In this document: positions 9,056-39,016 of the stretch, piece after piece
Position numbering within the stretch: position 1 is the stretch's first letter
How the letters are laid out: every line of letters begins with the position of its first letter
Assembly (NCBI GenBank): GCA_013203955.1
Contig: JABMOY010000068.1
Coordinates: 1 to 39,464, forward strand
Reading direction: 5' to 3'
Length of the DNA stretch: 39,464 nt
Source of the DNA: Rhodospirillales bacterium
GTDB lineage: Bacteria > Pseudomonadota > Alphaproteobacteria > Rhodospirillales > Casp-alpha2
Position numbers and translations under genes: made by a program
The notes under the pieces: generated by a model
The model's database searches: none
Told to the model about the DNA's origin: nothing
What the model saw: the letters and a program-made list of their open reading frames with translations, nothing else

Positions 9056-10270
9056 TCAACCGCCTTCCCTTGGCAATTTTTTCAAATGATTTGCAAGTTG
9101 ATCTGCCATGTAAGAGCCGATCTTTTCCAATCCTCGCCCGGTCAGATGAACGGAGTCCACAAAATGGGCATCCTTCGGCTTCAACGCTTGGGTTCCCCAT
9201 TTCTCGAGATCGATAACCTGAATATGGCGCTTGGCCGCAAGCCCCCGCAAGGCGGCATTATAACGCTCGGTCAGTTTCGCCAAGACGTATGGGTTTTTGG
9301 TATAATACGGTAGATGTCCAATTTTCAAGGCCCGCGGTGACGGGCTCGTCGACACATTGAACAATCCCGGCAAGGTGACCAGAAGGACTTGGCTGCCGAT
9401 CGATTCAAATTCTTCGACAACGTTTTCGATTCTATCCAAGAAGAGCGGCACATAACGATTTAGACGCTTAACCTCGGGCGAGACCGGGTCAGGCTTAAGC
9501 TCGCGATTGTACATTTTCTCAGCATACGCTCGCCGGCCCCCGAAAATTGCCTTCGCGGCACGGCTCGCACGATCAATTAACCAAACGGACCGAAAAAGAT
9601 TCTCCAAGGCATCGTCCCAGGGAACATTAAAAAAAAGGTCATTCCAACCGACATAGAGTGTGACAATTTCCGGCTTTAGAGATTTGTAACGCTCCATTTC
9701 GAAATAAATATTTCGTAGGAAATATCCCTCTACGCCGCCATTGATGACCTCGGTCGGTATACCCCTTTCGTTGAGAACCTTAGAAATGACGCTTGGGTAA
9801 TCACCGGCTCCGGCTCCGAAAGTGGTTGAATCGCCCAGGGCAAGGATGCGGGGCCGCGAGTGGGAACGGTCCAGTTCAGGTCCTTTAAATCCGTCCGCGT
9901 TGATCCGGAACAAGGTTTTCCCATCGCTTTCCCGATTTTCTATTTCGCCTTGAAGGACGCGGGCGCCAAAATCCCGGCCTGCTCGCTTCTTTTCAGCGAC
10001 GAGTAATTCTTCCGTTGCCTGGTATCCCGGACGCAGTATCCAGTGGTATCGTCCGCCAGGGGAAGGCATTTCGTAAGGGTCGAGATGAAGACCCTGTTGC
10101 AGCATCCCGGAAAAAGGGGGGTAGCCTTGAATGGTTTCGCGGTAAACGTAGACAAACCTAGCCGCCGCTTCAAAAAGCATGCCGACGCTAAGAAGCACTA
10201 ATAGCGCCACCGTTACTTTTACCGACAGCCTAAAGTTCTTTCCCTGCATTGCCTGTTCATTGGGGGGCAT
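9056..10270 (-). CDS. SGNH/GDSL hydrolase-family membrane-anchored protein
   Basis: Single N-terminal TM; block I LALGDSTTFGAG, block III-like YVGWNDLFF, C-terminal DSVHLTGRG. Track ORF extends to 10327; ATG at 10270 has a GGGAAG-like SD upstream. Confidence 0.8.
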   Translation of the reverse strand: MPPNEQAMQGKNFRLSVKVTVALLVLLSVGMLFEAAARFVYVYRETIQGYPPFSGMLQQGLHLDPYEMPSPGGRYHWILRPGYQATEELLVAEKKRAGRDFGARVLQGEIENRESDGKTLFRINADGFKGPELDRSHSRPRILALGDSTTFGAGAGDYPSVISKVLNERGIPTEVINGGVEGYFLRNIYFEMERYKSLKPEIVTLYVGWNDLFFNVPWDDALENLFRSVWLIDRASRAAKAIFGGRRAYAEKMYNRELKPDPVSPEVKRLNRYVPLFLDRIENVVEEFESIGSQVLLVTLPGLFNVSTSPSPRALKIGHLPYYTKNPYVLAKLTERYNAALRGLAAKRHIQVIDLEKWGTQALKPKDAHFVDSVHLTGRGLEKIGSYMADQLANHLKKLPREGG

Positions 10271-10471
10271 ATTGGCTTGCTTCCCGAGCATCACGGATAA
10301 GTGGCCCAAACTGTCTCGGTGTTCCAAGCCTTCCAGAAGATAAGTCCAATACCGTCCTTATCAGTATAAAAATACTGGAAATCCAATGATGAGCAGTCCA
10401 TAACCATCGAAGATGGAGAACGTTATAGAAACCCCACAAAAACTTAAATATCAAAGAGAACATAACCACCC

Positions 10472-12475: not shown

Positions 12476-12494
12476 GGGATAGGTTTTCCCTTAA
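12472..12494. terminator. Candidate bidirectional hairpin spanning two convergent stop codons
   Basis: TTAAGGGA (12472-12479) / TCCCTTAA (12487-12494), perfect 8-bp inverted repeat, 7-nt loop, between convergent asnB and radical SAM genes. Confidence 0.35.
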
Positions 12495-14311
12495 CGGAAC
12501 CCCCTGAAAAATACCATGTGTATCAGGGCCTTAACAGGGGACAGCATGGATTTTCGAATTTGACCTGCGAAAGACCCTTGGCTGGCGTTTGGGAAAATTC
12601 TTGCCCCTAATCCATCCGTAAACCATTGCGGATCAAGAAGAGGCCCCTGATAGGCAAAGTGAAGCGGGCACCGTTCGCAGGGGGGTAATTGTTTTCCGCT
12701 GTTGACCGTACGCCTGAAATTTCGCATTTGCTCGCCATTCCAAATCGATTGAAAATCATCATTAATAAAGTTGCCCAGGGAATATTCAGTCTGGCTGGCC
12801 CCGGTCGCGATACAACAAACATCGACGCGGCCATCGACGCTAAAATTGCCAAGATCCGCCCATGGTTTTTGGCAGTAGTACCGCGTGGTGCCGAAGAAAA
12901 ACCTCTTGATCCGATGAAAAGTCATCCGTCCATCTTGGGTCTTCCCGGTTTCAAACGCAGGGTCTGAGGATTCCTTCTGGATGGCATCGATCCAATCCAC
13001 CTCGGCATCCAGATTGTCGGCGCCATTTGAATAAAGAACGATTCGGATTTGGCTGTCATGACCTGTGTCGAATTCAAGAACATCAAGGGTTTCACCCTTC
13101 TTGAATTCAAATGTTTTAATCCACCCCGCTGTTTTTCCACTCAATATCCCAATTCCCAGAATGCCCGAACGCACCTGGCAATTCACAGGCAACAGAACGG
13201 TTTGCCCGGCCTTACAGGGAATCGAATAACTGCGGAGAAGATAAGGGCCCGGGGGACCTTCCCAGCGGACGACCACTTTATTAACCGATGGCCACGAAAT
13301 CTCCACCCCGGGGGAATCGATTTGCCAGCGATTCTTCGAAGGCAATTTAATTTCCGTCTCCATCTGCCCGGCTTCAAGTGCCTCGCCATCATTCTGCGCC
13401 TCAACCTCCGCCCGGTAAGAGCGAAAAGTGGAAGAATCAAAAAATACCCTCTTCTTTATTTTATTTTCGGATAAACCGGCATTTACCCGGCTAATCATTT
13501 CTTTCAGATCGCGTTCAAGGGGGACTAAGCCGCGCAGGTCTTCGACGGTCCCTGCTTCATTCGCCAATTCGGAAAGAGGGCGTATAAAAATTTCATCAAC
13601 GCCAAGGTCACTGTCACACAAACGCAGGAAATCACTAACTTCGAGGATGTTGTCGTTGGTCACGACAAAAGAAGCGCTGATTTTTGGGGCCCGAGCGTCG
13701 CCTCTTGCCTGAACAATATCCCGGATAAGAGACGTAATTGCGTCGAACCCTTCCAACTTCATGACCTTGTTGTGAGTATCGGCGGTTGCCGCGTTCAAAG
13801 AAAAATTGATGTTTTCAAGTTTCAATAGAAGCGGAATATCGGCGTTGCTTAGACGGGAACCGTTAGTGATCAGGTAAGCCTTGGCGGAACGGCCTGTTAG
13901 CAACGCGACAAGATCGTCAAAACGCTTATATAACGTAGGTTCGCCGTTGCCTTCTATTCCATACATCCACACCGTGTTAAGGCTGGGCTCCAGAAACCGT
14001 TCAATATTTTCCAAGGCGATTTGCCGCTTGATGATCCCCGTTCTTTGCACCGTCACCGAACAAAACTCACACTGGGCGTTACATTGCCCGGTCGGGCAAA
14101 GGCCAATGTATTGAGGAAGAGAGATTGCTTCTTCGCGGTCGGCCCGCATTTCGATCGATGAGATCAGGTGATTAAAAAGACGGGACCTTTTGCACAGGGC
14201 ATGGAGGTTGCGCCGAAACCACCCCCAATGAGGCAAAAAGGTATCCGTTCGGGCGTCCAAACCGTTATGGGCCGGAGGGTTATCGACGTTTTGAGTCTGC
14301 GGCATTTCCAT
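12491..14311 (-). CDS. Radical SAM/SPASM-domain protein with an inserted beta-rich module
   Basis: GQCNAQCEFCSV (CxxxCxxC), GNGEPTLY, LITNGSRL; C-terminal SPASM-like Cys cluster (YYCQKPW...VDVCCIATG...LPPCERCPLHF). Start refined to ATG near 14311; track ORF starts at 14371. Confidence 0.85.
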   Translation of the reverse strand: MEMPQTQNVDNPPAHNGLDARTDTFLPHWGWFRRNLHALCKRSRLFNHLISSIEMRADREEAISLPQYIGLCPTGQCNAQCEFCSVTVQRTGIIKRQIALENIERFLEPSLNTVWMYGIEGNGEPTLYKRFDDLVALLTGRSAKAYLITNGSRLSNADIPLLLKLENINFSLNAATADTHNKVMKLEGFDAITSLIRDIVQARGDARAPKISASFVVTNDNILEVSDFLRLCDSDLGVDEIFIRPLSELANEAGTVEDLRGLVPLERDLKEMISRVNAGLSENKIKKRVFFDSSTFRSYRAEVEAQNDGEALEAGQMETEIKLPSKNRWQIDSPGVEISWPSVNKVVVRWEGPPGPYLLRSYSIPCKAGQTVLLPVNCQVRSGILGIGILSGKTAGWIKTFEFKKGETLDVLEFDTGHDSQIRIVLYSNGADNLDAEVDWIDAIQKESSDPAFETGKTQDGRMTFHRIKRFFFGTTRYYCQKPWADLGNFSVDGRVDVCCIATGASQTEYSLGNFINDDFQSIWNGEQMRNFRRTVNSGKQLPPCERCPLHFAYQGPLLDPQWFTDGLGARIFPNASQGSFAGQIRKSMLSPVKALIHMVFFRGFR

Positions 14312-14506
14312 CCAGGCGCATTGTAAGCGCGGAAGGCAGTGGTGGAAACAGGCTAGTTTAAGGCCTGCCACTTGTTTAAAGGGGTTATTTCACATAGGTT
14401 TAGCCTGCGATTCCAAGATTTTTTTATAACGCTCCCTAGGGCATTTAGTGGGCTTATTAGAACCTATGCCTCTCCATATGGATTCCTTTTTCGAGGGCAG
14501 GCTTCC

Positions 14507-17131
14507 ATGCGTCAAATCCTTTTAAACCAGAAAGGCGCCATCGTCGCCCGTATGCCGAAGCCGACAGTCGGACGGGGGTCGATTCTTGTGCGGACTCGCT
14601 ATTCCCTAATAAGTGTCGGAACCGAAATTGCTTCTTTGGCGCCCGACGCCTCCTCCGGACCGGATTCGGGGCCCGTGGAAAAAGCACAAGCCTATGGGAA
14701 CCTAGCCTCGCAATACCTTGGGAAAGCCGTTCGCGACCCGAAAAAGGCGATGCAGAGGCTTAGAGCCTTAACCATTAGCCGTCTACATGCGCTTATGCCG
14801 GTGAAGCCCGTTACTGCCTCGAAGCCGGTAAATGTCGGTGGAATGATCTGGCGCAAGGTTGGTGGAGGCAGCCAGCAAACAGATGGCAATACCCTGCGAA
14901 TTACCACCGACACGACGGAGTTCGGTTATCAAAGCATGACCGACGAAATCTCCATTCCCAAAGATCATGCCGTCGTTCTTGAAGTGCGCGGCGAAATCGA
15001 AAAAGGTGCCGTTTGTATCGGCCTCATTGCCGGAACCCAGGGGCCTTGGCTCGGCTTTACGACTTTTGAGGCAGGGGTTTTTGATGAAAAATTGGTTTTT
15101 GATGTCGAAGGTGCGAAATCGGCCACAGTCGTCATCGCCAATGCCGGCCATAACGATCCCAGCAGCCTTAAAATTGAACCCATTAACGTCTCCATGGTTC
15201 CACCGGCCCCCGACGGCGCGTCACAAAACGAAATGGATCAACAAGGCTGGAACGTCGGCTATTCCCTGGCCGGTGAAGTGGTCAAGGTGGGCCCCGGTGT
15301 TGATGATTTGGTCCCCGGGGACTTGGTTGCCTGCGCCGGCGCCGGTCAGGCGAACCATGCGGATTATGTTTCGGTAAAACGCAACCTGGTTTGCCGGGTT
15401 CCCAAGAATTGCGACTTAAGATGGGCGGCAACGACGACTGTCGGTGTTATCGCCCTTCAAGGCGTTCGGCGGGCGGCGCCTGAGCTTGGCGAACGGATCG
15501 CCGTTATCGGCCTTGGGCTTATCGGCCAATTGACCGTTCAAATGCTACGCGCCGCGGGATGCCGCGTCTATGGATTGGACCTTGACCCGGAACGTGTCGA
15601 GCGCGCGAAAGCGGTGGGTTTGGATGGTGGTGCTTCCAACGTCGAGGATTTCAAACACCTTATCAGGGACGTCACGAGTGGCCATGGCACAGACCGGACC
15701 TTGATCACGGCGGCCACGACATCGAGTGACGTTACCAACCTGAGCATGGAAATTACCCGTCGCAAAGGCACCGTCGTTCTGGTTGGAGATGTCGGTCTGA
15801 ATATCGAGCGGCCGGATTTCTATCGAAAGGAAATCGACCTTTTGATGAGCACATCCTACGGCCCGGGCCGGTATGACGCCGCCTATGAGATCGATGGCAA
15901 CGATTACCCCTTTGCTTATGTTCGGTGGACCGAAAACCGGAACATGGAAAGTTATCTGGATCTGGTTTCTTCGGGGCGGCTGAATATCGAGCCCCTTATT
16001 GATTCCATAATCCCCGTTGATGAAGCGCCCGCCACCTACAAAGCTCTTGCCGGCGGAAAGGACACCAAGCCGTTGGGCGTGCTTATCAGTTATCCCGAAA
16101 CCGAAATGCCGGAAACGGACGAGGCTGTCATCACGCTTCGCGGGCACCGCAAACCGCAATCAGGTCCCATAAATTTTGCCCTGGTCGGGGCCGGGGCCTT
16201 TGGAACCTCCATGTTAGTTCCGCAAATGCAAAAGCAGAAAAACCAATTCTTTTTGAAGGCCGTTGTCAGCAGCGATGCGACCCGGGGTGGGAACTTCGCC
16301 CGCAGCCAAGGCATCGAAATCCTTGCTTCGGATATGGAAACGGTCTTGGGCAATCCGGAAATCGATCTTATTGTTATTGCCACCCGGCACAACCTTCATG
16401 CGGAACAGGTTGTCCGGGCGCTCGGAGCCGGCAAGCACGTCTTTACCGAGAAGCCCTTGGCGCTTTCATGGAACGAGCTTCATTCCGTTACCGAGGCCTA
16501 TAACAACCGGGAAACCGACAGCCTTTTGATGGTCGGCTTCAACCGCCGGTTTGCCCCGGCGATTATAAAGCTGAAAGAAACCATCACCCAAAGGCGATCA
16601 CCCCTCATCATCAATTACCGCTTGAACGGCGGTTTTATCCCTGCGGAAAACTGGATTCAAGGTCCGGAGGGGGGTGGGCGAAACCTGGGCGAGGCCTGTC
16701 ATATGTACGATGTATTCCGGTCTTTGGCCAGCGCACCCGTGGCATCGATCCAGGCGGCGGCCATTGACCCGGTTGATACGGCTTACCAACGTAATGACAA
16801 CTTCTGCGCCACCATCACATACGAAGACGGCAGCATCGGCAATCTTGTCTATACCGCGCTGGGGCCCAAGAAAGGCCTTCCCAAGGAACACCTTGAGGTC
16901 TTCACCGACGGCGAGGCTTTTGTCATTGATGATTTTACCAGCTTGTCCCGGGCCGGCGATGAAACTCCCCTGTGGCAAGCGGCCGAAGCCGACAAAGGCC
17001 ATTTCGAAGAATTGAAACGCTTAGGCGAAGCGATTGCCGGTGGTAAGGAAGCCCCCATACCCTTCGACGAGATCATCGAAACCTCTTCCGTCGCCCTGCA
17101 CATCGAAGATCAATTATTCGGGCGGGCCTGA
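14507..17131 (+). CDS. Bi-domain oxidoreductase: zinc-binding alcohol dehydrogenase-like domain fused to Gfo/Idh/MocA domain
   Basis: MDR-type Rossmann IAVIGLGLIGQLTVQMLRAAGCRVYGLDLD; second Rossmann NFALVGAGAFGTSMLVPQM and Gfo/Idh/MocA motif HVFTEKPLAL. ATG at 14507 preferred over TTG at 14372. Confidence 0.9.
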   Translation: MRQILLNQKGAIVARMPKPTVGRGSILVRTRYSLISVGTEIASLAPDASSGPDSGPVEKAQAYGNLASQYLGKAVRDPKKAMQRLRALTISRLHALMPVKPVTASKPVNVGGMIWRKVGGGSQQTDGNTLRITTDTTEFGYQSMTDEISIPKDHAVVLEVRGEIEKGAVCIGLIAGTQGPWLGFTTFEAGVFDEKLVFDVEGAKSATVVIANAGHNDPSSLKIEPINVSMVPPAPDGASQNEMDQQGWNVGYSLAGEVVKVGPGVDDLVPGDLVACAGAGQANHADYVSVKRNLVCRVPKNCDLRWAATTTVGVIALQGVRRAAPELGERIAVIGLGLIGQLTVQMLRAAGCRVYGLDLDPERVERAKAVGLDGGASNVEDFKHLIRDVTSGHGTDRTLITAATTSSDVTNLSMEITRRKGTVVLVGDVGLNIERPDFYRKEIDLLMSTSYGPGRYDAAYEIDGNDYPFAYVRWTENRNMESYLDLVSSGRLNIEPLIDSIIPVDEAPATYKALAGGKDTKPLGVLISYPETEMPETDEAVITLRGHRKPQSGPINFALVGAGAFGTSMLVPQMQKQKNQFFLKAVVSSDATRGGNFARSQGIEILASDMETVLGNPEIDLIVIATRHNLHAEQVVRALGAGKHVFTEKPLALSWNELHSVTEAYNNRETDSLLMVGFNRRFAPAIIKLKETITQRRSPLIINYRLNGGFIPAENWIQGPEGGGRNLGEACHMYDVFRSLASAPVASIQAAAIDPVDTAYQRNDNFCATITYEDGSIGNLVYTALGPKKGLPKEHLEVFTDGEAFVIDDFTSLSRAGDETPLWQAAEADKGHFEELKRLGEAIAGGKEAPIPFDEIIETSSVALHIEDQLFGRA

Positions 17132-19777
17132 GTGGTGGACGAAACGATTTCAATAAAACCCGGTTTGGGGGAATCTAAGGCGGGGAAATCAGAAATTTCC
17201 CGCTTTATTTACGTTTCCGATATGCATGAAATGGGGATTTTATTGCATCCCCATCTTTCAAGCCTAACAGAACGACATCGCATCAAGCTTGAGCGTCCGC
17301 CCCTTCGCCAAGGTTCCGAGATCATCAAGGAATCCCTGAGAAACAAGGCTTCAGGAATTATTGTCGAAATGCAGCGCGGTTGGCCGAACCGGCGCGATCT
17401 AATGTTGTCGCGGAAGGTTCTAAAAGCCGGATTTTCACTATTTTATTATTGGCCTAGGGAAGAGGCGGTCGAGATTATTAACGGCCATCGTTTATCGAGC
17501 ATGGCAAGCTTGTTCCTGTATGTAAGTGCTTTTCGAGTGTTGTTTTTCTTTTCCAAATTTTCTCCCTTAGACGATGCGGACCTTGAAACTCGTCACCAAA
17601 ATAGGTTGCAGGCTATTCAGGACAACATCCACCCTCTTCCCATGAGAAATATTAAATTCTCCGGTGGTCATCCAAAAATCGACGGCAAGGGAATTTATTT
17701 ACGGGCCGATTATTGGGCGGATATGAGATCGGGAGGCAGTTATGGACATACGTGTTATGTGGCGAAGGAACTGGCGAAGGCCACAGGGAACTTCACATGC
17801 TTGATGGGGAGCCGCTTCGAATTGCTGGACACCCTTGGCCTTAATCAAGTTGTCATGTCCCCCCCATCCGTATTCGCCCATGAAACGGACATGCTTGATG
17901 CGAACCTCTCTTATCATGACTCCCTAAGAGTTTTTTTTGAGATTTATCAACCCGATTATATTTACGAACGTCTCGTCCCGGGAAACTACGAAGGCGCACG
18001 CCTGTGCCAGGAATTAAAAATTCCTTACCTTGTCGAATACAACGGCTCTGAAATCGTCATGCGCCGTTCATTCGGAGACGGCAAGGGGTTTCGATTCGAA
18101 CACTTGTTCCTTGAAGCCGAAAAACTAGCTTTTGAGCAGGCAACGGCTATCAATGTTGTTTCTGACGTCGTCAAAGACAGCCTCGTGGAAATAGGCATTG
18201 ATCCTCAAAAAATTCTGGTTAACCCGAACTGCGCCGACCCGGAAGCCTATGCCCCGGGAACGGATGAGGAAGTCATTGGACTGCGCGGAGACGTGGGCTG
18301 GAATGGTAGCAATATCGTCATTGGTTTTGTCGGTACTTTTGGGGGCTGGCACGGCATTGAAGTCCTGGCGAAAGCCCTTCCCCGCATAGCCGAAGAGGTC
18401 CCTAATGCTCGTTTTCTGCTTATCGGAAAAGGCAATCTACAAAATCTTATTATTGATTCCATTGACAGGAACGACCTGCACGACAAAGTACACATGCCTG
18501 GAATGTTGCCGCAGCAGGAGACGGCGCACTTAATGAAAATGTGCGATATCTTCGTTTCCCCCCATCACCGGGACATGGGAACCATGAAGTTTTTCGGTTC
18601 CCCGACAAAGGTTTTCGAATACATGTCCTTAGGCGCCGGCATTGTCGCCAGCGATTTGGAACAAATCGGCGAGGTGCTGTCGCCATCGTTGCAGGCTTCC
18701 GATTTGGAAAAAATCGATCTTGAGATTACGGACCAACGTTCGGTGCTTTGCCAGCCAGGAAGTGTAGATGATTTCGTATCCGCCGTTGTCGGGCTTGCTA
18801 AACGCCCGGAAGTCATCAAAGCAATTGGCGCCAATGCCCGCCAGGCTATCCTCGAAAAGTATTCCTGGTCCAAGCATGTCGAAAGATTTTTGGATTTCAC
18901 TCAGGGCCTTGAGAATTCCCTGTACCGAGAAGCACAGAATGTTCCCGAAATCGTTGAGCCGGGCGAAGATCAGGACATTGATCCCTTCAAGAAGGAAATT
19001 ATCGATCAGTGGGACAACGACCCTTGCGGGTCACATTATGCGGCCTTGGAAGGAAAAACCCGTTTCGAATGGTTCAAAGAGGTAGAACAATTCCGTCATG
19101 AAGAATTCGGGCCATGGATGTGCGAAACAATGGAGTTTTCGGACCATGCCGGCGAATCGGTCCTTGAGATCGGTGGCGGCATGGGGACTGATTTGGTTCA
19201 ATTTGCAACTGCCGGAGCAATCGTAACGGACCTCGACATGTCGACAGAGCATTTGAACCTGGCGCGCGAAAATTTTGAACTTAGAAACCTGGAGGGGACG
19301 TTCATTCACGGTGATGCCGAAGACATGCCCTTTGACGACAACAGCTTTGATCTCGTTTATACCAACGGCGTTATCCACCATACGCCGAACACCAAGAAGG
19401 TTATTGACGAGATTTACCGGGTGCTCAAACCGGGCGGGGAAGTCATTTGCATGGTCTATGCGGAAAGCTCCATCCAATATTGGCGTGATCTTGTTCTTTG
19501 GCGGGGGTTGCGTCAGGGTCAGCTTCAGTATTGGTCGATGGGGGAAATCATGTCCCGCAGCGTTGAAATATCCGAGACGGGCGCGCGGCCTTTGGTCAAG
19601 GTTTACAGGCCGAAACAACTCAAGGAAATGTTCGGGGATTTCACGGGTGCCCGGGTTTTTCATCGCCAATTAATGCCACACGAACCGCCGAAGCTGTTGC
19701 GATGGCTACCGGTAAGTTTCTTGCAAAAAATCATGGGATGGAACCTTGTGATCAAAGCGCGAAAACCGCAACAGTGA
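17132..19777 (+). CDS. Fused GT4 glycosyltransferase and class I SAM-dependent methyltransferase
   Basis: GT4 region (IGFVGTFGGWHGIEVL...GSPTKVFEYMSLGAGIVASDLEQIGEVL) followed by MT motif I VLEIGGGMGTDLVQFA and GDAEDMPFDDNSFDLVYTNGVIHHTPN. GTG start abutting previous stop. Confidence 0.9.
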   Translation: MVDETISIKPGLGESKAGKSEISRFIYVSDMHEMGILLHPHLSSLTERHRIKLERPPLRQGSEIIKESLRNKASGIIVEMQRGWPNRRDLMLSRKVLKAGFSLFYYWPREEAVEIINGHRLSSMASLFLYVSAFRVLFFFSKFSPLDDADLETRHQNRLQAIQDNIHPLPMRNIKFSGGHPKIDGKGIYLRADYWADMRSGGSYGHTCYVAKELAKATGNFTCLMGSRFELLDTLGLNQVVMSPPSVFAHETDMLDANLSYHDSLRVFFEIYQPDYIYERLVPGNYEGARLCQELKIPYLVEYNGSEIVMRRSFGDGKGFRFEHLFLEAEKLAFEQATAINVVSDVVKDSLVEIGIDPQKILVNPNCADPEAYAPGTDEEVIGLRGDVGWNGSNIVIGFVGTFGGWHGIEVLAKALPRIAEEVPNARFLLIGKGNLQNLIIDSIDRNDLHDKVHMPGMLPQQETAHLMKMCDIFVSPHHRDMGTMKFFGSPTKVFEYMSLGAGIVASDLEQIGEVLSPSLQASDLEKIDLEITDQRSVLCQPGSVDDFVSAVVGLAKRPEVIKAIGANARQAILEKYSWSKHVERFLDFTQGLENSLYREAQNVPEIVEPGEDQDIDPFKKEIIDQWDNDPCGSHYAALEGKTRFEWFKEVEQFRHEEFGPWMCETMEFSDHAGESVLEIGGGMGTDLVQFATAGAIVTDLDMSTEHLNLARENFELRNLEGTFIHGDAEDMPFDDNSFDLVYTNGVIHHTPNTKKVIDEIYRVLKPGGEVICMVYAESSIQYWRDLVLWRGLRQGQLQYWSMGEIMSRSVEISETGARPLVKVYRPKQLKEMFGDFTGARVFHRQLMPHEPPKLLRWLPVSFLQKIMGWNLVIKARKPQQ

Positions 19778-26048: not shown

Positions 26049-28097
26049 TTGTTTTCAGTTTGGAAGCCCATGAATTTCACGAGAATTTCACCCTATTTTG
26101 TACCTGGACTAGCCCTTTTGGTGGTGTTTCTTGTCATCTTCTACGCGGGCTTCGGCCAAAGGCCCATCAACTTTGACGAGCCCGGCATTTTCAACGCGCC
26201 TTATATGTTTGCCCAATATAACAGCGTTTCTTACCCGGTTTGGTACCACCGGTTCTCCGACAGTTTCGAGACATATTATTTCCACCCCCCGGTCTATTAC
26301 ACGGCCTTGGGTACGATCATGAAGGTTGTGTCCGTTTATTACGCCGAGGCCGTTATCCCGACACTGATTTTCATGATTTCCGTCTGGTTGATTGTTTCAA
26401 TGCGGGCGCCCTCTTTTTACAAATTTTCCTACTTACTTTCCTTATTCTCTCTGGTCGTTGTTTATATCGTCACGTCGATGGCCAACTTCGGCGTCCGCCC
26501 CGACATGGTAATGGCCCTTTGTTGGGCCGCCGGTCTTCTGGCCATGGAAAAAAGTCGGCTCGAAGGTTGGTCGTGGCCGATGATGTTTTTGGGTTCGTTC
26601 CTTGCCGTCCTGGCCTCATCTCTCCATTACATCGGAGTATTTTTCATGGCCAGCGTCCCGGTTTACTGCTTTTTCGCGTACCGAGAACTCGGTTGGCGGC
26701 AATCAAAAAAGGTCTTGGCTGCCGCCGTCGGGGGGGGGTGTCTGATTGGCGTCCCCTATCTGGTCCTATTTATTATTCCCAACTTCGAGCAAATTATTAA
26801 CTGGTTAACGAGAGCGGAATTCTCCAACGAGCATGGCTCGAACCCATTCCGGATTTTTTGGTTCAAGGTTTCCAGCAACGCCGCTAGAGACCTGTCTTGG
26901 AGCCCGGTAGAATTTTTTAGGGTTTTTCCAGGATTGTTGATGCGGTGGTACGTGCCTATAGGTCTTTTCGCCGCGGCGGGGCTATTGATGATCCGAAACA
27001 CCCGCACCCTGGCTTGGGCCGCCCTGCCCCATATGATCTTCATCTATTTTATTGCCGACAAGAATCAATCGACCTACATCATCCCGGAATATTTTTTCAT
27101 ATTTCTTTTGGTGTTCACGGGCTCGTTGCTGACGGTTCAACGATTGTTACGGCATATCCGGCTTTCGAACTGGGAACGGCCGGTCATGTTTGTACTTTGC
27201 GTTTCTTTCGCGGGACACATGGCCGGCTCGGCTCCGCATTTCCAATATGCTTTCAAACAAATCGGCAAGTTCCAGGTTCATTGGATGGAAGTCGCCCGGG
27301 CGGCAGGACAGCGGATCATTGGAACCGATGCCGTAGTCGGTGAAAACACTGCGGCGTTTTATATTTCCGGTGCCCGCTACTGGTATCCGGAAGGACCAAT
27401 GTTTCTGCTCCCGGACGAACGAACGTTTCCGCCAGGGCAAAAGACCAGAAGAAAGAAAAATCGATGGCACACTGGAGTCTTGGATGAAGAAAAGCGCCTG
27501 TCCGCCCCTACGTCCATCGTCGGGTTTACCCTGAACAGCCCGTCATGGCTGTTACCAAAGCATTTAAAGGCCGGGGGCAAAAAAGTGGATGGAAACTTGG
27601 CCGGCTATTACGCAGACGGCAAGCTCAATATCCTGGGCGTCGTTAATACCCCGGCAAATATCGGCATCATGTTTTTCTCAACCCGCAAGCCTGACCATGC
27701 TCGCTATTTCCAGATCAATCATTATACGCGGCGGATATCGGAGTTCGTGGAATCAGGCCAAGGTGATACCATCTTCGGCACATACCTGTGCTTAACCTTG
27801 AAAGACATTCCCGAGCAAAAGTATTTCCGGTTTTACCATCCTTTTATTACCTACCTTGAGGTCGATGGGAAAAACCCGCAGATTTTAGGTGTATTCCGGA
27901 CCCCAAAACGGACCTTCGATAAGATGACAAAAGTTCTTTCGCCGGACTGCTACATCAAGGAAAGCCACCTGGGAACGGTGCGTTCCTATTCCCTCGTCGA
28001 TTTCATGAAAGCCAACCCGGACTTTCACAAAGACATTTCGTTTTTTCCCAATCAGCAACAGGCTATCGAGGCGAAACGGGCAACGGAGAGGAATTAA
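26049..28097 (+). CDS. GT39/PMT-ArnT-like membrane glycosyltransferase with soluble C-terminal domain, tandem copy 1
   Basis: Many TM segments, N-terminal acidic loop motif NFDEPGIFNAPYMFAQ, VRPDMVM; C-terminal about 170-aa soluble region. Start may be ATG 26070. Confidence 0.8.
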   Translation: MFSVWKPMNFTRISPYFVPGLALLVVFLVIFYAGFGQRPINFDEPGIFNAPYMFAQYNSVSYPVWYHRFSDSFETYYFHPPVYYTALGTIMKVVSVYYAEAVIPTLIFMISVWLIVSMRAPSFYKFSYLLSLFSLVVVYIVTSMANFGVRPDMVMALCWAAGLLAMEKSRLEGWSWPMMFLGSFLAVLASSLHYIGVFFMASVPVYCFFAYRELGWRQSKKVLAAAVGGGCLIGVPYLVLFIIPNFEQIINWLTRAEFSNEHGSNPFRIFWFKVSSNAARDLSWSPVEFFRVFPGLLMRWYVPIGLFAAAGLLMIRNTRTLAWAALPHMIFIYFIADKNQSTYIIPEYFFIFLLVFTGSLLTVQRLLRHIRLSNWERPVMFVLCVSFAGHMAGSAPHFQYAFKQIGKFQVHWMEVARAAGQRIIGTDAVVGENTAAFYISGARYWYPEGPMFLLPDERTFPPGQKTRRKKNRWHTGVLDEEKRLSAPTSIVGFTLNSPSWLLPKHLKAGGKKVDGNLAGYYADGKLNILGVVNTPANIGIMFFSTRKPDHARYFQINHYTRRISEFVESGQGDTIFGTYLCLTLKDIPEQKYFRFYHPFITYLEVDGKNPQILGVFRTPKRTFDKMTKVLSPDCYIKESHLGTVRSYSLVDFMKANPDFHKDISFFPNQQQAIEAKRATERN

Positions 28098-28156: not shown

Positions 28157-29659
28157 ATGAATTCCAAGAAATTTTTAAACTATCTAGTGCCAGGACTTGC
28201 CCTCCTAGTTGTGGTCATTGTCGTCTTCTACGGGGGCTTCGGGCAAAGACCCATTAGTTTCGATGAGCCCGGAAATTTCAACGCACCTTATATGTTCGCC
28301 CAACATAGCAAGGTGGCTTTCCCGGTTTGGTACCTCAGATTTCCTGATAGTTTTGAGACATATTTTTACCACCCCCCCGTTTTTTATACAGCCCTTGGCA
28401 CCATCTTGAAGTTTGTTCCCGTTTATTACGCCGAGGCTGTTATCCCAACGTTGATTTTCATGATTGCCGCTTGGTTGGTTGTTTCTCTACGGGCGCCAGC
28501 ATATTTCAAATTTTCTTGCCTTCTCTCCACCTTCGCTTTGGTTACTATTTATGTTGTCACGTCGATGTCCCATTTCAGCATTCGTCCTGACATGGTGATG
28601 AGCCTTTTCTGGTTCACCGGGCTGTTCGCCATGGAAAAAAGCCGGCTCGACGGATGGTCGTGGCCATCAATGTTCCTGGGCTCACTCCTAATCGTCTTGG
28701 CCGCGTCTTTCCATTACATCGGGTTGTTTTTCATGGCCAGCGTCCCTGTTTATTGTTTTTTGGCATACCGCGAACTCGGCTGGTGGCGAGCCAAAAAGGT
28801 CATTGGCGCGGCCGCGGCCGGTGGGTGCCTGATCGGCATTCCCTATCTGGCCCTGTTTATTATTCCTAATTTCGAACAAATTGTTGATTGGTTAACGAAG
28901 GCGGAAAACTCCAACGAGCATGGCAGCAACCCGTTGCGGATTTTCTGGTTCAAGGTTTCGTCAAACGCCGTTAGGGACCTTTCCTGGAGCCCCGTGGAAT
29001 TTTTTAGGGTTTTTCCGGGTTTGTTGATGCGGTGGTACGTGCCTTTGGGCCTTTTCGCCGCAGCGGGGTTTTTGATGATCCGCCAAACCCGCGCCTTGGC
29101 CTGGGCAATCCTGCCCCACATGATCTTCATCTATTTCATCGCCGACAAGAATCAATCGACCTACATCATCCCGGAATATTTTTTCATATTTCTTTTGGTG
29201 TTCACGGCCTCGTTGCTGGGTATTCAACGATTGTTGCGGCGTGTCCGGCTTTCGAACTGGGAACGTCCAATAATGTTCGGGCTTTGCGCTGCCTTGGTTG
29301 GGCATCTAACTGCCACCGCGCCACCTTTCAAGTATGCCTTAAAACAAATCGGAAATTATCAGGTTCATTGGATGGACGTAGCCCGCGCAGCCGGGCAGCG
29401 GATCGTTGGCACAGACGCCGTGATAGGGGAATACTCTGCTGCGTTTTACATGTCCGGCGCCCGTTACTGGTATCCAGAGGGGTCGATGTTTCTAAAGCCG
29501 GATAACTTCCAATTCAAGTCCTATGGAATTTCTGGATTCAAGGGATCCATAAATCGGTGGAAGGGTGATATCAAAGATGAAAAGGAACGCTTGTCCGTCC
29601 CTACTGCCATCGTTGGGTATTCGTTGAATATACTTGAGAGGCCATATTCATATCATTAA
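28157..29659 (+). CDS. Copy-2 membrane part of the PMT-like protein (500 aa up to the TAA)
   Basis: Highly similar to residues of copy 1 through the TM region (e.g. SWSPVEFFRVFPGLLMRWYVPLGLFAAAG). Confidence 0.7.
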   Translation: MNSKKFLNYLVPGLALLVVVIVVFYGGFGQRPISFDEPGNFNAPYMFAQHSKVAFPVWYLRFPDSFETYFYHPPVFYTALGTILKFVPVYYAEAVIPTLIFMIAAWLVVSLRAPAYFKFSCLLSTFALVTIYVVTSMSHFSIRPDMVMSLFWFTGLFAMEKSRLDGWSWPSMFLGSLLIVLAASFHYIGLFFMASVPVYCFLAYRELGWWRAKKVIGAAAAGGCLIGIPYLALFIIPNFEQIVDWLTKAENSNEHGSNPLRIFWFKVSSNAVRDLSWSPVEFFRVFPGLLMRWYVPLGLFAAAGFLMIRQTRALAWAILPHMIFIYFIADKNQSTYIIPEYFFIFLLVFTASLLGIQRLLRRVRLSNWERPIMFGLCAALVGHLTATAPPFKYALKQIGNYQVHWMDVARAAGQRIVGTDAVIGEYSAAFYMSGARYWYPEGSMFLKPDNFQFKSYGISGFKGSINRWKGDIKDEKERLSVPTAIVGYSLNILERPYSYH

Positions 29660-29689: not shown

Positions 29690-30190
29690 TTGGCCGGCTA
29701 TTACGCAGACGGCAAGCTCAATATCCTGGGCGTCGTTAATACCCCGGCAAATATCGGCATCATGTTTTTCTCAACCCGCAAGCCTGACTATGCTCGCTAT
29801 TTCCAGATCAACCATAATACGCGCCAGATTACGGAGTTTGTGGAATCAATCCTGGGCGATACAGTTTACGGCACATACTTATGCAAAACCCTGGAAGACC
29901 TACCTGAGCTAAAATTTTTCCGGTTTCATCACCCTTTCAACACCTTTCTTGAAGTCGATGGTAAAAATCCGCAGATATTGGGCGTCTTTCGGACTCCTAA
30001 ACAAACCTTCTATAAACTGACAAAGGTTCTTTCGCCGGGCTGTTACATCAAGGAAAGCCACCTTGGAACGGTGCGTTCTTATTCCTTCGTCGAATTCATG
30101 AAGCAAACCCCAGAATTCCACACCGAGGTATCTTTCTATCGCAACCAGCAACAAGCCATCGACGCAAAAACAGCGGCAGGGAGGAAATAG
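29690..30190 (+). CDS. Copy-2 soluble C-terminal part of the PMT-like protein (possible separate translation from TTG)
   Basis: AGYYADGKLNILGVVNTPANIGIMFFSTRKPD... identical/similar to copy 1 C-terminus; GGGGGG 4 nt upstream of TTG. Confidence 0.4.
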   Translation: MAGYYADGKLNILGVVNTPANIGIMFFSTRKPDYARYFQINHNTRQITEFVESILGDTVYGTYLCKTLEDLPELKFFRFHHPFNTFLEVDGKNPQILGVFRTPKQTFYKLTKVLSPGCYIKESHLGTVRSYSFVEFMKQTPEFHTEVSFYRNQQQAIDAKTAAGRK

Positions 30191-32430: not shown

Positions 32431-34350
32431 ATGCCGACAAAAACATTCACCTTTATTTGTCTTTATAACCACCAATCGATAGGTGTTCGGACTTTATGTT
32501 CGATCCTGCGGGATCGGGGGTGGAACTACAATCTTATTTTCCTCAAACCCCACATCGAAAGCATCATACGGGAAATCCCTTCAGAGGAGGAAATACAACT
32601 CGCCATCGATAAGGTAATAGACCTTAACAGCGATTACGTCGGCCTTCAGGTCTTCTCCTCTTTCATCGAACTGGCTTCTATCCTGACCGAGAGAATCCAA
32701 GCTTTGGGGATTCCTGTTTTTTGGGGTGGGCCGCACCCGACCGTCATGCCCGATGATGCCATTTCCACCGCCGATATGATCTTCATGGGTGAAAGTGAGC
32801 ATTCTTTCATCGATTTCATCGAAAGAACCGAGAAAGGTGAGGATCTCTCCACCATCGCCGGCTCATGGCATCGCCAAGGGGACAAAATTACAAAAAACGC
32901 AGGGCTTCACGTTGAACAGAACCTTGACCTTTTTCCATTTCCCTATTTTGACAACGAGCATACCTATTACATTGGGGACGGAACCCTTTCGCCCTACACG
33001 GAAAATTACAAATTTTACGTCATGATGACGGCGCGGGGCTGCGCCTACTCATGCACATATTGCGTCAATTCGTTCCTCAGGAAGGAATTTGGCAACAAGG
33101 GGTTCGTCCGAGCCCGCAGCGTCGATAACTGTATTCAGGAACTTGAGGAGATGGTCGGGAAATACCCAATCGACCATATTTATTTTTCAGATGAAATTTT
33201 CGGTACTCAAAAAAAATGGGTCCGGGAATTCGCACCGAAATACAAGGAAAAGATTTACCTGCCCTTTTGCTGTTTATTCCACCCAAACACCGTCAAGGAA
33301 GACGTTGTTTCCATCCTAAAAGATGCCGGCCTCAGCAAGGTAGGCATGGGACTGGAAAGCGGCAGCAAGGAAATTATTGGTGACCTCTACGACCGAAGAA
33401 CCACCACTGAAAAAATGTTGAAAGCCTGTAATCTTCTTAACAAGTATGGCATCAGAGTTGCCTACGACATAATTCTCGACAGCCCCTATGATACCGAAAA
33501 GACCCTTTCGGATACATTAGACTTGCTATTGAAAATTCCGAAACCTTTCATCCTTTCGGCATTTTCCCTAACACCATTCGCAGGTTCGGCCCTTACGCAA
33601 AAAATGCTTGATGATGGGTACATCACCGAGGACGACATAGAAGGAAATGTCAAAACTCGGCGTTCAAAAGCGGTGTGGGCGTGGAGAGCCAATGATAAAG
33701 GCCTAAGAAAATTTGATTCCTACTGGAATGGGCTCATCCTTTTATGCGGCAGCACACGGTTCCCCAATTGGATAATCAAAATGCTGGCCCGCATGAGGTT
33801 CCTAAAATACTTACCCTCCTTTATCTGGAGGGTGGTCAAGGCCAAGGACATCATGGTCAAAAAATTTGGCGAGAATACGCTGGAAATAAAAAACAGCTCT
33901 GCCGATCAGATTTTCAGCAGTCCTTTCCACCTAAGAGCTGTGATTGACGACCAACTGTTCAAAAAGCCCGTTAACAGCGTTCGCGAAGAAGATATCGTTT
34001 TCCGCGAACAAATTGCCACGACTGAAAACGGACAATGGAAAGCAAGGGGAAGAGCAAGTTCTCCCTTCACTTATCTCGTGAAAGGCAAATATCAGCCGCA
34101 AAAGAAGGGCCGGTATCTGATTGCCGAGGGGAAGCTCTTAAACGGGGGGTTTACGCTGGGGTTGCTTCATGATGAAGAATGGCTGCAAAAGGTAAGCGTC
34201 GTCAATAAAGGCAGTTTCAAGATCGTTCTAGAGGTGCCGAACGACGATACCTACGCCGTTACCTTAGCCAACAATTTATCCGAGGGATCCCTACAAAACG
34301 ATTTCACGATTGATAAGATTGGCTGGCTTGAAGACGGTGCCGCCGCCTAG
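32431..34350 (+). CDS. B12-binding-type radical SAM protein with C-terminal beta-rich module
   Basis: FWGGPHPTVMPDDAI...IFMGESEHSFIDFIE; TARGCAYSCTYCVNS (CxxxCxxC); about 130-aa beta-rich C-terminal tail. Confidence 0.88.
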   Translation: MPTKTFTFICLYNHQSIGVRTLCSILRDRGWNYNLIFLKPHIESIIREIPSEEEIQLAIDKVIDLNSDYVGLQVFSSFIELASILTERIQALGIPVFWGGPHPTVMPDDAISTADMIFMGESEHSFIDFIERTEKGEDLSTIAGSWHRQGDKITKNAGLHVEQNLDLFPFPYFDNEHTYYIGDGTLSPYTENYKFYVMMTARGCAYSCTYCVNSFLRKEFGNKGFVRARSVDNCIQELEEMVGKYPIDHIYFSDEIFGTQKKWVREFAPKYKEKIYLPFCCLFHPNTVKEDVVSILKDAGLSKVGMGLESGSKEIIGDLYDRRTTTEKMLKACNLLNKYGIRVAYDIILDSPYDTEKTLSDTLDLLLKIPKPFILSAFSLTPFAGSALTQKMLDDGYITEDDIEGNVKTRRSKAVWAWRANDKGLRKFDSYWNGLILLCGSTRFPNWIIKMLARMRFLKYLPSFIWRVVKAKDIMVKKFGENTLEIKNSSADQIFSSPFHLRAVIDDQLFKKPVNSVREEDIVFREQIATTENGQWKARGRASSPFTYLVKGKYQPQKKGRYLIAEGKLLNGGFTLGLLHDEEWLQKVSVVNKGSFKIVLEVPNDDTYAVTLANNLSEGSLQNDFTIDKIGWLEDGAAA

Positions 34351-34420: not shown

Positions 34421-37162
34421 TCAGTTTGGCTTCCGGGAGACGGAAAAGATCATCTCTCTTGAATCGGGATCGTCCCGCGATATGCGGTGAAGAATTAGGT
34501 CCCGGCCTTCAAGTTCTTCCAAGCCAAGCGGGCTATAGTCAAACATTTCAAATTCGATGTCGGTTTGTCCCACGGATTTCAACATCCATTCAAACTCTGG
34601 GCGGGAATATTCCCGGTGATGCCCTTTGAAGGGAATTTCCGTTGAAAACTGGCTTTCGATCTGGGGAAAGGGACTTTCCCCACGGAGCATCTTAAGCCGG
34701 TTCGATACGTAGGCGAGGTTCGGAGTATCCATGATCAAGCGGCCGCCCGGTTTTAAAACGCGGGTCAAGGTTTCAAGAAGGTTCTTCGGAGTATCAGGAA
34801 CATGTTCAATGACCGACATGCATAGAACGACATCAAAAAAGTTATCCTCTATAACGCCGTTTAGCTCGTAACCAACATTCTCTAAATCCAGAATCTTGAT
34901 TTCATTATCCCTCATTAGACCAAGATTCTTCGAAAAATCATCCTGATGAGATGAATACTCATCAGCGGCCCAAGTTTCGAGCCCTGCCTCTACGCCCAAA
35001 AGCGCAAAATTTCCAAAATAGGATCCGTAATCCAGGAGCCGTAATCCAGGGCCAGTATATTTTTGAAGAGCTCTTGTGACGTGCAGCATTCTAATAACGC
35101 TACACTTTAAATAGTTCTCAAAATCGAAATTTTTCAAAGCCGGCACATTAGGGTGGAGACTTTTAAATGCCCCACCCTCAATACATGAATGTATTTTCTC
35201 ATAAACTCCCCAGGTGGCGTCGAACTCCTCGGGAAACTGTCGGCGCAAATCTTCGGGAAAATTAATTTTAAGTTTTTGCGCGCCAGAGGGATCGGCGGGC
35301 CAGCCAATTTGTTGAAGAGTTAAAGCGTCATTCCAGGTCGATTTAGGTTTATTCCACAGGCGCGAAGCAGTGAGATTGTCTTCCCGCAATTCGTCATCAT
35401 CAAGGGACCATTCAGCATCAGCCACCCATCCTGTTCCCGATGGAATAATACCTTCACCCATAACCTCAAATTCGGTGATGCGTGTCGCACAACAATGGAC
35501 ATTTGGATTGATCGAAAAAAATAGAGTTTGCTCCTGGTCGAAATAACCATTCTGGGCAATCATCACCGATAAGGCGTATTTTCCAATACCAAGAGTCAGC
35601 CAAGGGAAGCGAACCCGGATACGACCTTCTTTTTTTTCGCTATAACTAACGGGAATGTCCCGCATGATCGCCCGGAGGGTATCTACTACCCCGCCGTAAA
35701 GAAAACCAATTGCCATATCAACAGGTTCCTCGAACCCCGGCGCAACAACGTGAAAATCAATAACAATTTCCACCGCCTCTCCATGAGTAACCGTACGGAT
35801 CTGGTTCCCTTTGGCGTCGGTGATTTGCGCCTGCGATATCAGAATCGCGCCGTTTCCATGGAGGGTTAATTCCCCTTTTTCCATGCCCCGCGTCAGAACG
35901 AGGGGACGGCTTTCGTTTTGGTCAATTGTCAAACGAGCCGTATTCCAGCTCCCTTTTTCACCGCCCAGCATTCCCAAATCAATAAATTTATCATTAAAGA
36001 ATACAGAGACCGAGCCTGCCCCGTCGGTCTCTTTCCAGTAATCTAAAATAAGCTGAGCATGGTTTTTTTCGCTGCCAAGGCATTTCCTGGGAATACGAAA
36101 CAAACAAGCCGCCCGGGGATAGGCGGATCCGTAAGAAAGCACCGAACGAACCTCCCGGCCCTCAAACACGGTCGGCTCGCCCCAGCGGGAATTTTTCAAG
36201 TCGAATTCACTATCCGGGTTTTCCTCATTACCCTCGGAACCTGCAATCGGCAGTTCAAAGTCACCTTCGGCCCCACAGGAAATGGCAATTCGGCTAATAT
36301 GCATGCCTTCAAGCGCCCCAACGGGAAGGTAAAATTCCACCCAAAGCACCAACTCGCCGGCGTCATCATGCTTTATGAGTTCGGATTTTGACAGCTCGGC
36401 GCGTAGTCGAATCTCTTCCTGTTCGCGTATAGATGCTTCATAAGCTGCAATCATCCGCGCAGGGGCACCATCGGCGATAATCTTGCCCTGATCGATCCAA
36501 ATCATCCGGTCGCATAGTTTCCCGGCACTATAAATATTGTGGGAAACGAGCAGGACCGTGGTTCCTTCAACCTCACATAACTTTTCAATCTTCTTAAAGC
36601 TCTTCAGCGCGAAATAAGCGTCTCCTACCCCCAAAACCTCATCGATAACAAGGACATCCGGCACAATCGCCGTCGCCGCCGAAAACATCAGCCGGGCGCT
36701 CATGCCTGTGGAATATGTCTTAACCGGCTGGTCGATGTAATCATCAATTTCTGCAAAATCGATGATTTCAGAAACTTTCGCCTCGGCTTCCGAGCCGGAA
36801 ATGCCGAGATAGGAAAGGTAGGATTCGACGTTTTCACGGCCTGTGAAATCCGGGTGAAACCCACTGCCAATTTCTAACAGGGCCTGCGTTTCCCCCGTCA
36901 CTTCAAGAGTGCCCGATGTCGGCTCAGTGACTTGGGTGATCAGTTTAAGAAGCGTACTCTTGCCGGCGCCGTTACGCCCAATAATCGCAACCCTCTCACC
37001 CCGCAGAACCTCAAAATCGATTCCAGAGAGTGCCGCATGCTCCGAATACTTTCCCGACCCGGGCCGAAGCAGCCCTATCATGTCAAGAAGACGGTATTGG
37101 GGTTTTGCGAAAAGCTTGTAGACCTTCGTTAGCCCTTGGGCACGGATGATGACATCACTCAT
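34421..37162 (-). CDS. Polysaccharide ABC exporter ATPase (Wzt-like) with beta-sandwich/Wzt-C region fused to class I SAM methyltransferase
   Basis: Walker A IIGRNGAGKSTLLKLI, signature-region YSTGMSARLMFSAATAI, Walker B DVLVIDEVLGVGD; C-terminal MT (LRLLDYGSYFGNFALLGVEAG...FFDVVLCMSVIEHVPDTPKNLLETLTRVLKPGGRLIMDTPN). ATG at 37162 (MSDVIIRAQGL) overlaps the permease stop (ATGAGTGA); the track's extra N-terminus is antisense-like read-through of the permease gene. Confidence 0.92.
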   Translation of the reverse strand: MSDVIIRAQGLTKVYKLFAKPQYRLLDMIGLLRPGSGKYSEHAALSGIDFEVLRGERVAIIGRNGAGKSTLLKLITQVTEPTSGTLEVTGETQALLEIGSGFHPDFTGRENVESYLSYLGISGSEAEAKVSEIIDFAEIDDYIDQPVKTYSTGMSARLMFSAATAIVPDVLVIDEVLGVGDAYFALKSFKKIEKLCEVEGTTVLLVSHNIYSAGKLCDRMIWIDQGKIIADGAPARMIAAYEASIREQEEIRLRAELSKSELIKHDDAGELVLWVEFYLPVGALEGMHISRIAISCGAEGDFELPIAGSEGNEENPDSEFDLKNSRWGEPTVFEGREVRSVLSYGSAYPRAACLFRIPRKCLGSEKNHAQLILDYWKETDGAGSVSVFFNDKFIDLGMLGGEKGSWNTARLTIDQNESRPLVLTRGMEKGELTLHGNGAILISQAQITDAKGNQIRTVTHGEAVEIVIDFHVVAPGFEEPVDMAIGFLYGGVVDTLRAIMRDIPVSYSEKKEGRIRVRFPWLTLGIGKYALSVMIAQNGYFDQEQTLFFSINPNVHCCATRITEFEVMGEGIIPSGTGWVADAEWSLDDDELREDNLTASRLWNKPKSTWNDALTLQQIGWPADPSGAQKLKINFPEDLRRQFPEEFDATWGVYEKIHSCIEGGAFKSLHPNVPALKNFDFENYLKCSVIRMLHVTRALQKYTGPGLRLLDYGSYFGNFALLGVEAGLETWAADEYSSHQDDFSKNLGLMRDNEIKILDLENVGYELNGVIEDNFFDVVLCMSVIEHVPDTPKNLLETLTRVLKPGGRLIMDTPNLAYVSNRLKMLRGESPFPQIESQFSTEIPFKGHHREYSRPEFEWMLKSVGQTDIEFEMFDYSPLGLEELEGRDLILHRISRDDPDSREMIFSVSRKPN

Positions 37163-38012
37163 AGTCAACCAGGACTTTCCTAAAACGGCGGAAGAAAATG
37201 CATCCCAGCACGTAGAAAACAAGACTGCCGACGACCGCGACAATCCATATTCTCGGCGGCATTTCGTAACCATCGATGAGACTGAACCGAAAAATTTCGG
37301 CCATGTAATAGATCGGGTTGAAATCGACGACAAACCGCATTCCTTCGGGAACCATGTCCGGGCGGAAGGCGATCGGAGAGACGAATAACAATAACAGGAC
37401 CATCAAATTGACGAAATAATTAAGGTCCGGAACGAACACCCCCATGGCGGAAAACGCGGTGGATAGCCCCAGCAAGAACAGAACCTGCAATAACAACGCC
37501 AGGGGAAGAAACAATAGATTGGCTGAGATCGTTCCGTTTAAAACGCTTAACCCCACAATCATGGCGAGACCCACGAATTCCGTAACGATGGTCATCAATA
37601 CCACCCGCGCGGGAACCAAATCCACGGGCAGCATGACATTTCGCACCAGATGGATATCTCTCTTGATGGATGCGGTTGCCATTCCCAGCGTTTCCATAAA
37701 CGCGATATAGGGGACCAAACCGGAAAATACGAAAACGACGTAGTCGAGTTGCCCGTACCCGGGAAACCGAACGCGAAAAACGAACAAGTAAACAAACAGG
37801 TAAATAGCAAGAAACAATACCGGCTGCAGGACGATCCAAAACGAGCCGAACAACGAGCCGGCAAAACGCTTTTTAAATTCCACACGGGTTGTCGAGATAA
37901 TTATTTTACGATATCGGAACAACGTTTCAAGGTTGCCCCGAATCGCTCGAAAGATTCTGTAAAGGGTCGAAGAATCATCCCTCGTCCGAGTTCCCGCAGA
38001 AAACCCCTTCAT
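37155..38012 (-). CDS. ABC-2 type polysaccharide exporter permease (Wzm/KpsM-like)
   Basis: Cytoplasmic N-terminus FRYRKIIISTTRVEFKKRFAGSLFGSFWIVLQPVLFLAIYLFVYLFVF typical of Wzm/TagG permeases; six TM; paired with ATPase. Confidence 0.92.
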   Translation of the reverse strand: MKGFSAGTRTRDDSSTLYRIFRAIRGNLETLFRYRKIIISTTRVEFKKRFAGSLFGSFWIVLQPVLFLAIYLFVYLFVFRVRFPGYGQLDYVVFVFSGLVPYIAFMETLGMATASIKRDIHLVRNVMLPVDLVPARVVLMTIVTEFVGLAMIVGLSVLNGTISANLLFLPLALLLQVLFLLGLSTAFSAMGVFVPDLNYFVNLMVLLLLFVSPIAFRPDMVPEGMRFVVDFNPIYYMAEIFRFSLIDGYEMPPRIWIVAVVGSLVFYVLGCIFFRRFRKVLVDYE

Positions 38013-38948: not shown

Positions 38949-39016
38949 ATCAAGGCTCCAGCGCCAACTTCCGCTGATTGTTCCCCCTTTTCTCACTAGA
39001 ACAGAGCACAATTACT

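Follow-up and report, generated by a model that had tools for sequence, protein, structure and literature searches.

A CBM-like module recurring across enzymes of Wzm/Wzt-type polysaccharide loci, and its possible role in holding them on a glycan

Three copies of a module in the window

The window analyzed here is a contig of 39,464 nucleotides from the Rhodospirillales bacterium assembly GCA_013203955.1 (JABMOY010000068.1, forward strand). It contains three copies of a module of ~100–125 amino acids, one each in a bi-domain oxidoreductase (OR), a radical SAM/SPASM protein and a B12-binding radical-SAM protein. These copies, their parent genes and the neighboring genes that bear on them are as follows.

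12491–14371, minus strand: radical SAM/SPASM protein (Pfam Radical_SAM, SPASM)
about 12968–13342, minus strand: CBM-like module, type I, between the radical-SAM and SPASM domains (hhalign to the OR profile)
14507–17131, plus strand: insert-bearing bi-domain OR, Zn-ADH plus Gfo/Idh/MocA (Pfam ADH_zinc_N, GFO_IDH_MocA)
14828–15208, plus strand: CBM-like module, type I, inside the GroES-like domain of the OR (HMM, AlphaFold2, Foldseek)
17132–19777, plus strand: glycosyltransferase-methyltransferase fusion, next to the insert-bearing OR wherever the module was found
32431–34350, plus strand: B12-binding radical-SAM protein (Pfam B12-binding, Radical_SAM)
about 34000–34341, plus strand: CBM-like module, type II, C-terminal in the B12-binding radical-SAM protein (hhalign, shuffle control)
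34421–38012, minus strand: Wzm/Wzt-type ABC exporter, its Wzt with its own Wzt_C domain and a C-terminal methyltransferase
38978–39464, plus strand: PMT/GT39-like membrane protein, N-terminus only, truncated by the contig end (family match 77%)

The OR likely starts at the ATG at 14507 (MRQILLN...) rather than at the TTG at 14372, because its relatives start at the same MRQIL. The preliminary description of this DNA had noted that ~120 amino acids interrupt the GroES-like domain of this enzyme between the strings SRLHALMP and QGWNVGYSLAG, and our HMM match (~14834–15196) lay in exactly that place. As that description had also supposed, the segment is foreign to its parent enzyme: in an alignment with three standard bi-domain ORs (Thalassospira, Sphingobium and Streptomyces plasmids; 709–759 amino acids), these homologues had only a short normal linker at the insert site. 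The window enzyme was 32–39% identical overall to the plasmid homologues and alignable with them on both sides of the insert, and among the best tblastn matches listed, the alignments to plasmid ORs began downstream of the insert. The bi-domain oxidoreductase family is thus the parent of the OR insert, and its standard members lack it. Over 78 pairs, the insert had a mean identity of 38.6%, compared with 65.3% for the enzyme; this faster divergence of the insert is compatible both with a diversifying glycan and with relaxed constraint.

The stretch between Cys46 and the GHE motif borders the active-site entrance in classical alcohol dehydrogenases, and the insert presumably lies between the equivalents of these two landmarks, a position that would suit the presentation of a sugar chain to the enzyme. 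The copy in the radical SAM/SPASM protein was placed at 12980–13339 (minus strand), and its arrangement recurred in an Acidobacteriota homologue. The B12 copy shared 44% identity over 87 amino acids with the C-terminal domain of a PMT-like protein from Acidobacteria.

Two further copies lie beyond the window. Its end and a second contig of the same genome (C149; reverse-complemented) share a 10-base overlap, GATATCATGA, across which the PMT/GT39-like reading frame runs on, and C149 thus appears to continue the window directly. C149 contains a fourth copy, in the likely continuation of the gene at 38978–39464, and a fifth in the next gene; both carriers are PMT-like membrane proteins, and with C149 counted in, the locus has five copies. 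Because the window ends in the first of these tandem PMT/GT39-like genes and C149 appears to follow it, the assembly was probably interrupted at a repeat, and the locus would extend beyond the window. Elsewhere in the window, a multi-TM gene (26049–28097) has a tandem paralogue that is split into two ORFs (28157–29659 and 29690–30190), so that either the gene itself is disrupted or the assembly is at fault there, and an SGNH protein (9056–10327) lacks the module.

Homology and fold of the copies

The resemblance among the three segments had originally been picked out by eye. In Smith–Waterman comparisons, the OR/SPASM pair scored 63, compared with 28 ± 5 for shuffled sequences, and none of 1000 shuffles scored as high. 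The OR/B12 score of 39 was marginal (equaled or exceeded by 30 of 1000 shuffles), and the SPASM/B12 score of 34 was not significant (92 of 1000). Because these pairwise scores placed only the OR/SPASM resemblance beyond chance, profiles were needed to settle the rest. A profile built from six OR inserts matched the SPASM segment with an hhalign probability of 96.5% (E = 8.2e-10) and a B12-subtype profile with a probability of 65.8% (E = 5.7e-5, 91 columns); the latter comparison scored 33.1, whereas the highest score among 200 column shuffles was 21.2. The same profile matched the C-terminal domains of PMT-like proteins at 98.5% and 98.7%, and the SPASM segment scored 66.1 against a combined profile, for which the maximum in column shuffles was 23.7. 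Direct hhalign comparison of the SPASM segment with the small B12-subtype profile gave no significant match, and the SPASM–B12 link therefore goes via the OR-type profile. On these profile comparisons, the OR, SPASM and B12 segments are homologous and form one family with two subtypes. The recurrence proposed in the preliminary description thus held up under the HHalign comparison that it had suggested, save for the direct SPASM/B12-subtype match. Its regular expression proved loose: members of the family share the signature Y...G....G....W along with a significant profile match, and over at least 50 copies only these four letters were near-invariant (in an alignment of 51 rows that includes a doubtful one, Y in 49, the first G in 49, the second G in 51 and W in 50). 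The conserved Tyr and Trp are candidate sugar-site residues but could also be core residues.

AlphaFold2, supplied with six sequences, predicted an all-beta jelly-roll for the OR insert (pLDDT 92.9, pTM 0.87), placing it among proteins of that fold. Its top Foldseek match in the PDB was a porphyran-binding CBM (8xmz; E = 6.6e-5, TM 0.65), and the next matches included CBM4 (1gui/1gu3), CBM22, CBM6 and CBM29, as well as beta domains of glycoside hydrolases and phage tailspike domains. The better CBM-type matches had moderate TM-scores of 0.58–0.71 on the query at 8–14% identity. The protein 8xmz was also the top PDB sequence-profile match of the module, with an E-value (0.12–0.15) that is not significant alone, and by sequence the module matched no catalogued CBM family. 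The AlphaFold2 model of the type II copy of the B12 protein was weaker (pLDDT 72 overall, 86–92 in the core, with a poor N-terminus); this copy had no Foldseek match below E 0.001, and its matches were only generic beta-sandwiches. The shared beta-rich fold that had been anticipated was therefore borne out for the OR insert, with its confident jelly-roll and CBM matches, but not comparably for the B12 copy, whose membership is a matter of sequence rather than of fold.

The preliminary description had recognized no named family, and the databases agreed: no Pfam model matched the OR, SPASM or B12 segments up to E 10, ten further carriers likewise had no Pfam match over the module, and among the NCBIfam matches listed, none had its best stretch on the three segments. 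Several candidate relatives were tried and rejected. A NEAT-domain match obtained with a three-sequence profile (E = 0.013) was gone with deeper profiles; the module gave an hhalign probability of 0.3% against the window's own Wzt_C domain (PF14524), and we rejected that relation; a match to a cyclic-nucleotide-binding-like protein (L041; E = 0.003) covered half of the profile and was set down to chance, as were single marginal hits in two further scans. In the open-licence literature we found no account of a module used across a locus in this way. The best reading is that the module constitutes an undescribed CBM-like family that is absent from Pfam.

Genomic distribution and parent proteins

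Searches with single segments found nothing outside the window in 190 genomes of the class, so three-row and larger profiles were needed; tblastn searches of plasmids with the OR and B12 segments likewise produced no match. An initial HMM made from the three window segments found copies in C149 and in two other genomes, one of the same genus (G437) and one of the same order but a different family (G251). A genome-wide scan of the collection found the OR insert in the Rhodospirillaceae MAG ARS16 and in a MAG of gp6 Acidobacteria from soil. Among Acidobacteriota, carriers numbered 2 of the 199 genomes in a phylum sample and 9 of the 193 in a class sample, each with from one to at least eight copies. 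In 399 genomes of Pseudomonadota we found nothing convincing outside the window, which indicates that the family is rare in that phylum. A local HMM search returned 51 matches, corresponding to at least 50 copies in at least 49 proteins, 10 parent families and 12 genomes of two phyla, after exclusion of a doubtful ORF that overlaps an asparagine-synthase frame (G1111, C761); because up to ~22 candidates were scored per genome, copy counts are minimum values.

In the genomes searched, the module was confined to polysaccharide loci. At least eight copies lay within 43–111 kb of a 164-kb contig (C5) in one genome of 4.7 Mb (G961), at least eight within 27–118 kb in another (G1176), at least six within 84–141 kb in a third (G1153) and at least four within 104–146 kb in G251, and in soil Acidobacteriota a single polysaccharide locus of Wzm/Wzt type held up to at least eight copies within ~55–90 kb. 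In all 12 module genomes the insert-bearing OR adjoined the same glycosyltransferase-methyltransferase gene, and homologues of a heparinase-like protein, Wzm, Wzt and AsnB (the last ~64% identical across phyla) were present in most of them. This common core implies that marine Rhodospirillaceae-type MAGs and soil Acidobacteriota have the same kind of ABC-exported polysaccharide locus.

We grouped the carriers by sequence clustering and Pfam matches. The module was always an insert in the ORs (n = 13) and always lay between the two domains in the radical SAM/SPASM proteins (n = 2); the other parents were B12 radical-SAM proteins, four multi-TM groups of PMT/GT-C type (with PMT_2 matched in some), SGNH/AlgX-like proteins, RCC1-repeat proteins and a nucleotidyltransferase-methyltransferase. 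Two carriers matched Pfam ALGX. Type I copies (OR, SPASM and several PMT-like proteins) have a longer N-terminal part with a Trp, whereas type II copies (B12, SGNH, RCC1 and most of PMT-like group A) are shorter. Two RCC1-repeat (beta-propeller) proteins of an Acidobacteriota locus (L131, 7959–12610, minus strand), each with a C-terminal type II copy, lie beside a Wzt gene.

The OR insert appears to have entered its parent once, as judged from a tree in which 76% of bootstrap replicates gave the OR inserts a single origin. Three proteins of PMT-like group A had type I and ten had type II, in both cases at the C terminus, and strongly supported branches forced at least two changes of subtype. 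One PMT-like protein (L126; G1153, contig C1, 122842–126084) has a type I and a type II copy in tandem. These subtype changes and the tandem protein indicate that the module moved between parents, with type II copies exchanged among them. The idea of a mobile accessory module was thus upheld, with at least 50 copies in 10 parent families and subtype exchange in group A, and the HMM search that had been suggested as a check on it found that the copies do cluster in polysaccharide loci.

A candidate tether to the polysaccharide

CBMs are known mainly from glycan-breaking enzymes, with the classical families mostly on secreted glycan-degrading enzymes. Like the jelly-roll CBMs that it resembles (8xmz, CBM4, CBM22, CBM6 and CBM29), the module is an accessory beta-sandwich (~120–170 residues in those CBMs), but it has no detectable membership of these families by sequence and occurs on intracellular and membrane enzymes of biosynthesis. 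Its CBM-type fold, its confinement to polysaccharide loci and its presence in ~10 enzyme families together point to glycan binding, which, given fold, context and precedent, is our best reading of its function. We consider it reasonably probable that the module is a CBM-like family that tethers the enzymes of a polysaccharide locus to their polymer. According to this proposal, many enzymes encoded in a single type of Wzm/Wzt polysaccharide locus have acquired the module, either as an insert or at the C terminus, and each copy would bind a stretch of the polymer or of a lipid-linked precursor, thereby holding the dehydrogenase, the radical-SAM tailoring enzymes, the membrane glycosyltransferases and the acyltransferase-like SGNH protein on the glycan. 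Such tethering would raise the local substrate concentration and favor modification of the polymer over modification of free sugars.

Precedents exist for parts of this arrangement. AlgX, an SGNH protein that functions in alginate acetylation in Pseudomonas, has a C-terminal CBM in exopolysaccharide biosynthesis (PMC9734138). The likeness to the SGNH/AlgX-like carriers is one of layout, with the CBM C-terminal to the SGNH domain, and of the Pfam ALGX match; in AlgX, however, the CBM is on one enzyme, whereas the module is spread across ~10 parent families. Two SGNH/AlgX-like proteins with a C-terminal module and the layout of AlgX with its CBM are encoded at L081 (8684–10459, minus strand) and L118 (6162–7820, plus strand). 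In Wzt, a jelly-roll domain binds the sugar that caps the polymer prior to its export (PMC9445017), which is likewise glycan recognition fused to a pathway protein, and a Wzt_C domain is present in the same locus, although without a detectable hhalign relation to the module. The Asp/Gap accessory-Sec glycosylation proteins, from a pathway that makes glycoproteins, were among the weaker Foldseek matches (6lnw and 6oyc), but with low TM-scores and no sequence link.

The preliminary description had suggested either a common ligand, such as the nascent glycan, or a scaffold that co-localizes the pathway. A docking domain that assembles the enzymes and binds no sugar strikes us as unlikely. Up to at least eight copies per locus is what a scaffold would give, and CBM-like jelly-roll domains can also mediate protein–protein contacts. 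However, we saw no co-evolution among the copies of one genome, we came across no shared partner or dockerin-like mate in the course of these analyses, and the carriers are expected, from their sequences, on both sides of the membrane, with the OR and radical-SAM enzymes cytosolic and the SGNH/AlgX-like proteins periplasmic, which would make a single assembly hard. (Transmembrane segments were absent from the OR, SPASM and B12 proteins of the window, the SGNH/AlgX-like proteins had an N-terminal hydrophobic segment, and for the PMT-like proteins the topology given by hydropathy and the positive-inside rule was inconsistent among homologues.) Because the polymer too is expected on both sides, it fits better than one scaffold, leaving the scaffold the weaker of the two suggestions. 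The common ligand fared well in kind, since the CBM matches of the OR insert favor a glycan, but not as one and the same ligand for every copy: type I copies were 23.3% identical within a genome and 21.9% between genomes (permutation p = 0.20), and type II copies 28.4% and 28.0% (p = 0.12). Because copies of one locus are no more alike than others, a single identical ligand is unsupported, and the copies may bind different parts of the glycan.

We regard it as quite improbable that the ligand of the module is not the polymer but the lipid carrier or a lipid-linked primer, bound at the membrane face. PMT-like proteins and Wzm/Wzt pathways use polyprenyl-phosphate substrates, which would suit such a role, as would the presence of the module on soluble and membrane enzymes alike; the best fold matches of the OR insert, however, were polysaccharide-binding CBMs and not lipid binders. 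There is very little likelihood that the module has no ligand, contributes only to structure or stability and was retained because it was inherited with its parents. The fast divergence of the OR insert relative to its enzyme and its possible single origin would be compatible with this explanation, but repeated attachment to ~10 parent families, the exchange of subtypes in group A, the occurrence of two copies in one protein and the near-invariance of Y, G, G and W across two phyla all argue against it. That the three window segments are unrelated beta-rich stretches matched by chance, as the weak SPASM/B12 and OR/B12 pairwise scores and the non-significant SPASM/B12-subtype comparison might suggest, is hardly credible given the shuffle-controlled profile–profile E-values (which already refute it for OR/SPASM) and the C-terminal position of both types in homologous PMT-like parents.

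If the module does tether enzymes to the polysaccharide, a more far-reaching and tentative proposal is that it turns free-standing enzymes into polymer-acting tailoring enzymes, with the growing polysaccharide as the site of redox and radical chemistry on either side of the membrane. The polymer-acting set would then comprise the dehydrogenase-reductase, the radical-SAM and B12 radical-SAM enzymes, the nucleotidyltransferase/methyltransferase, the membrane glycosyltransferases and the acyltransferase-like SGNH protein. The new element would be the reuse of a CBM-type fold across a whole biosynthetic locus; the module would mark which enzymes have the polymer, and not free sugar nucleotides, as their substrate. 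It would also provide a sequence marker for finding such loci and a targeting domain that could be transferred between proteins in polysaccharide engineering.

The exporter of the window has a peculiarity of its own. Its Wzt homologue (34421–37333, minus strand) has a methyltransferase domain downstream of Wzt_C. Because methyl caps are recognized by Wzt in known systems, this homologue may, by analogy, be a single protein that both makes and reads the chain cap.
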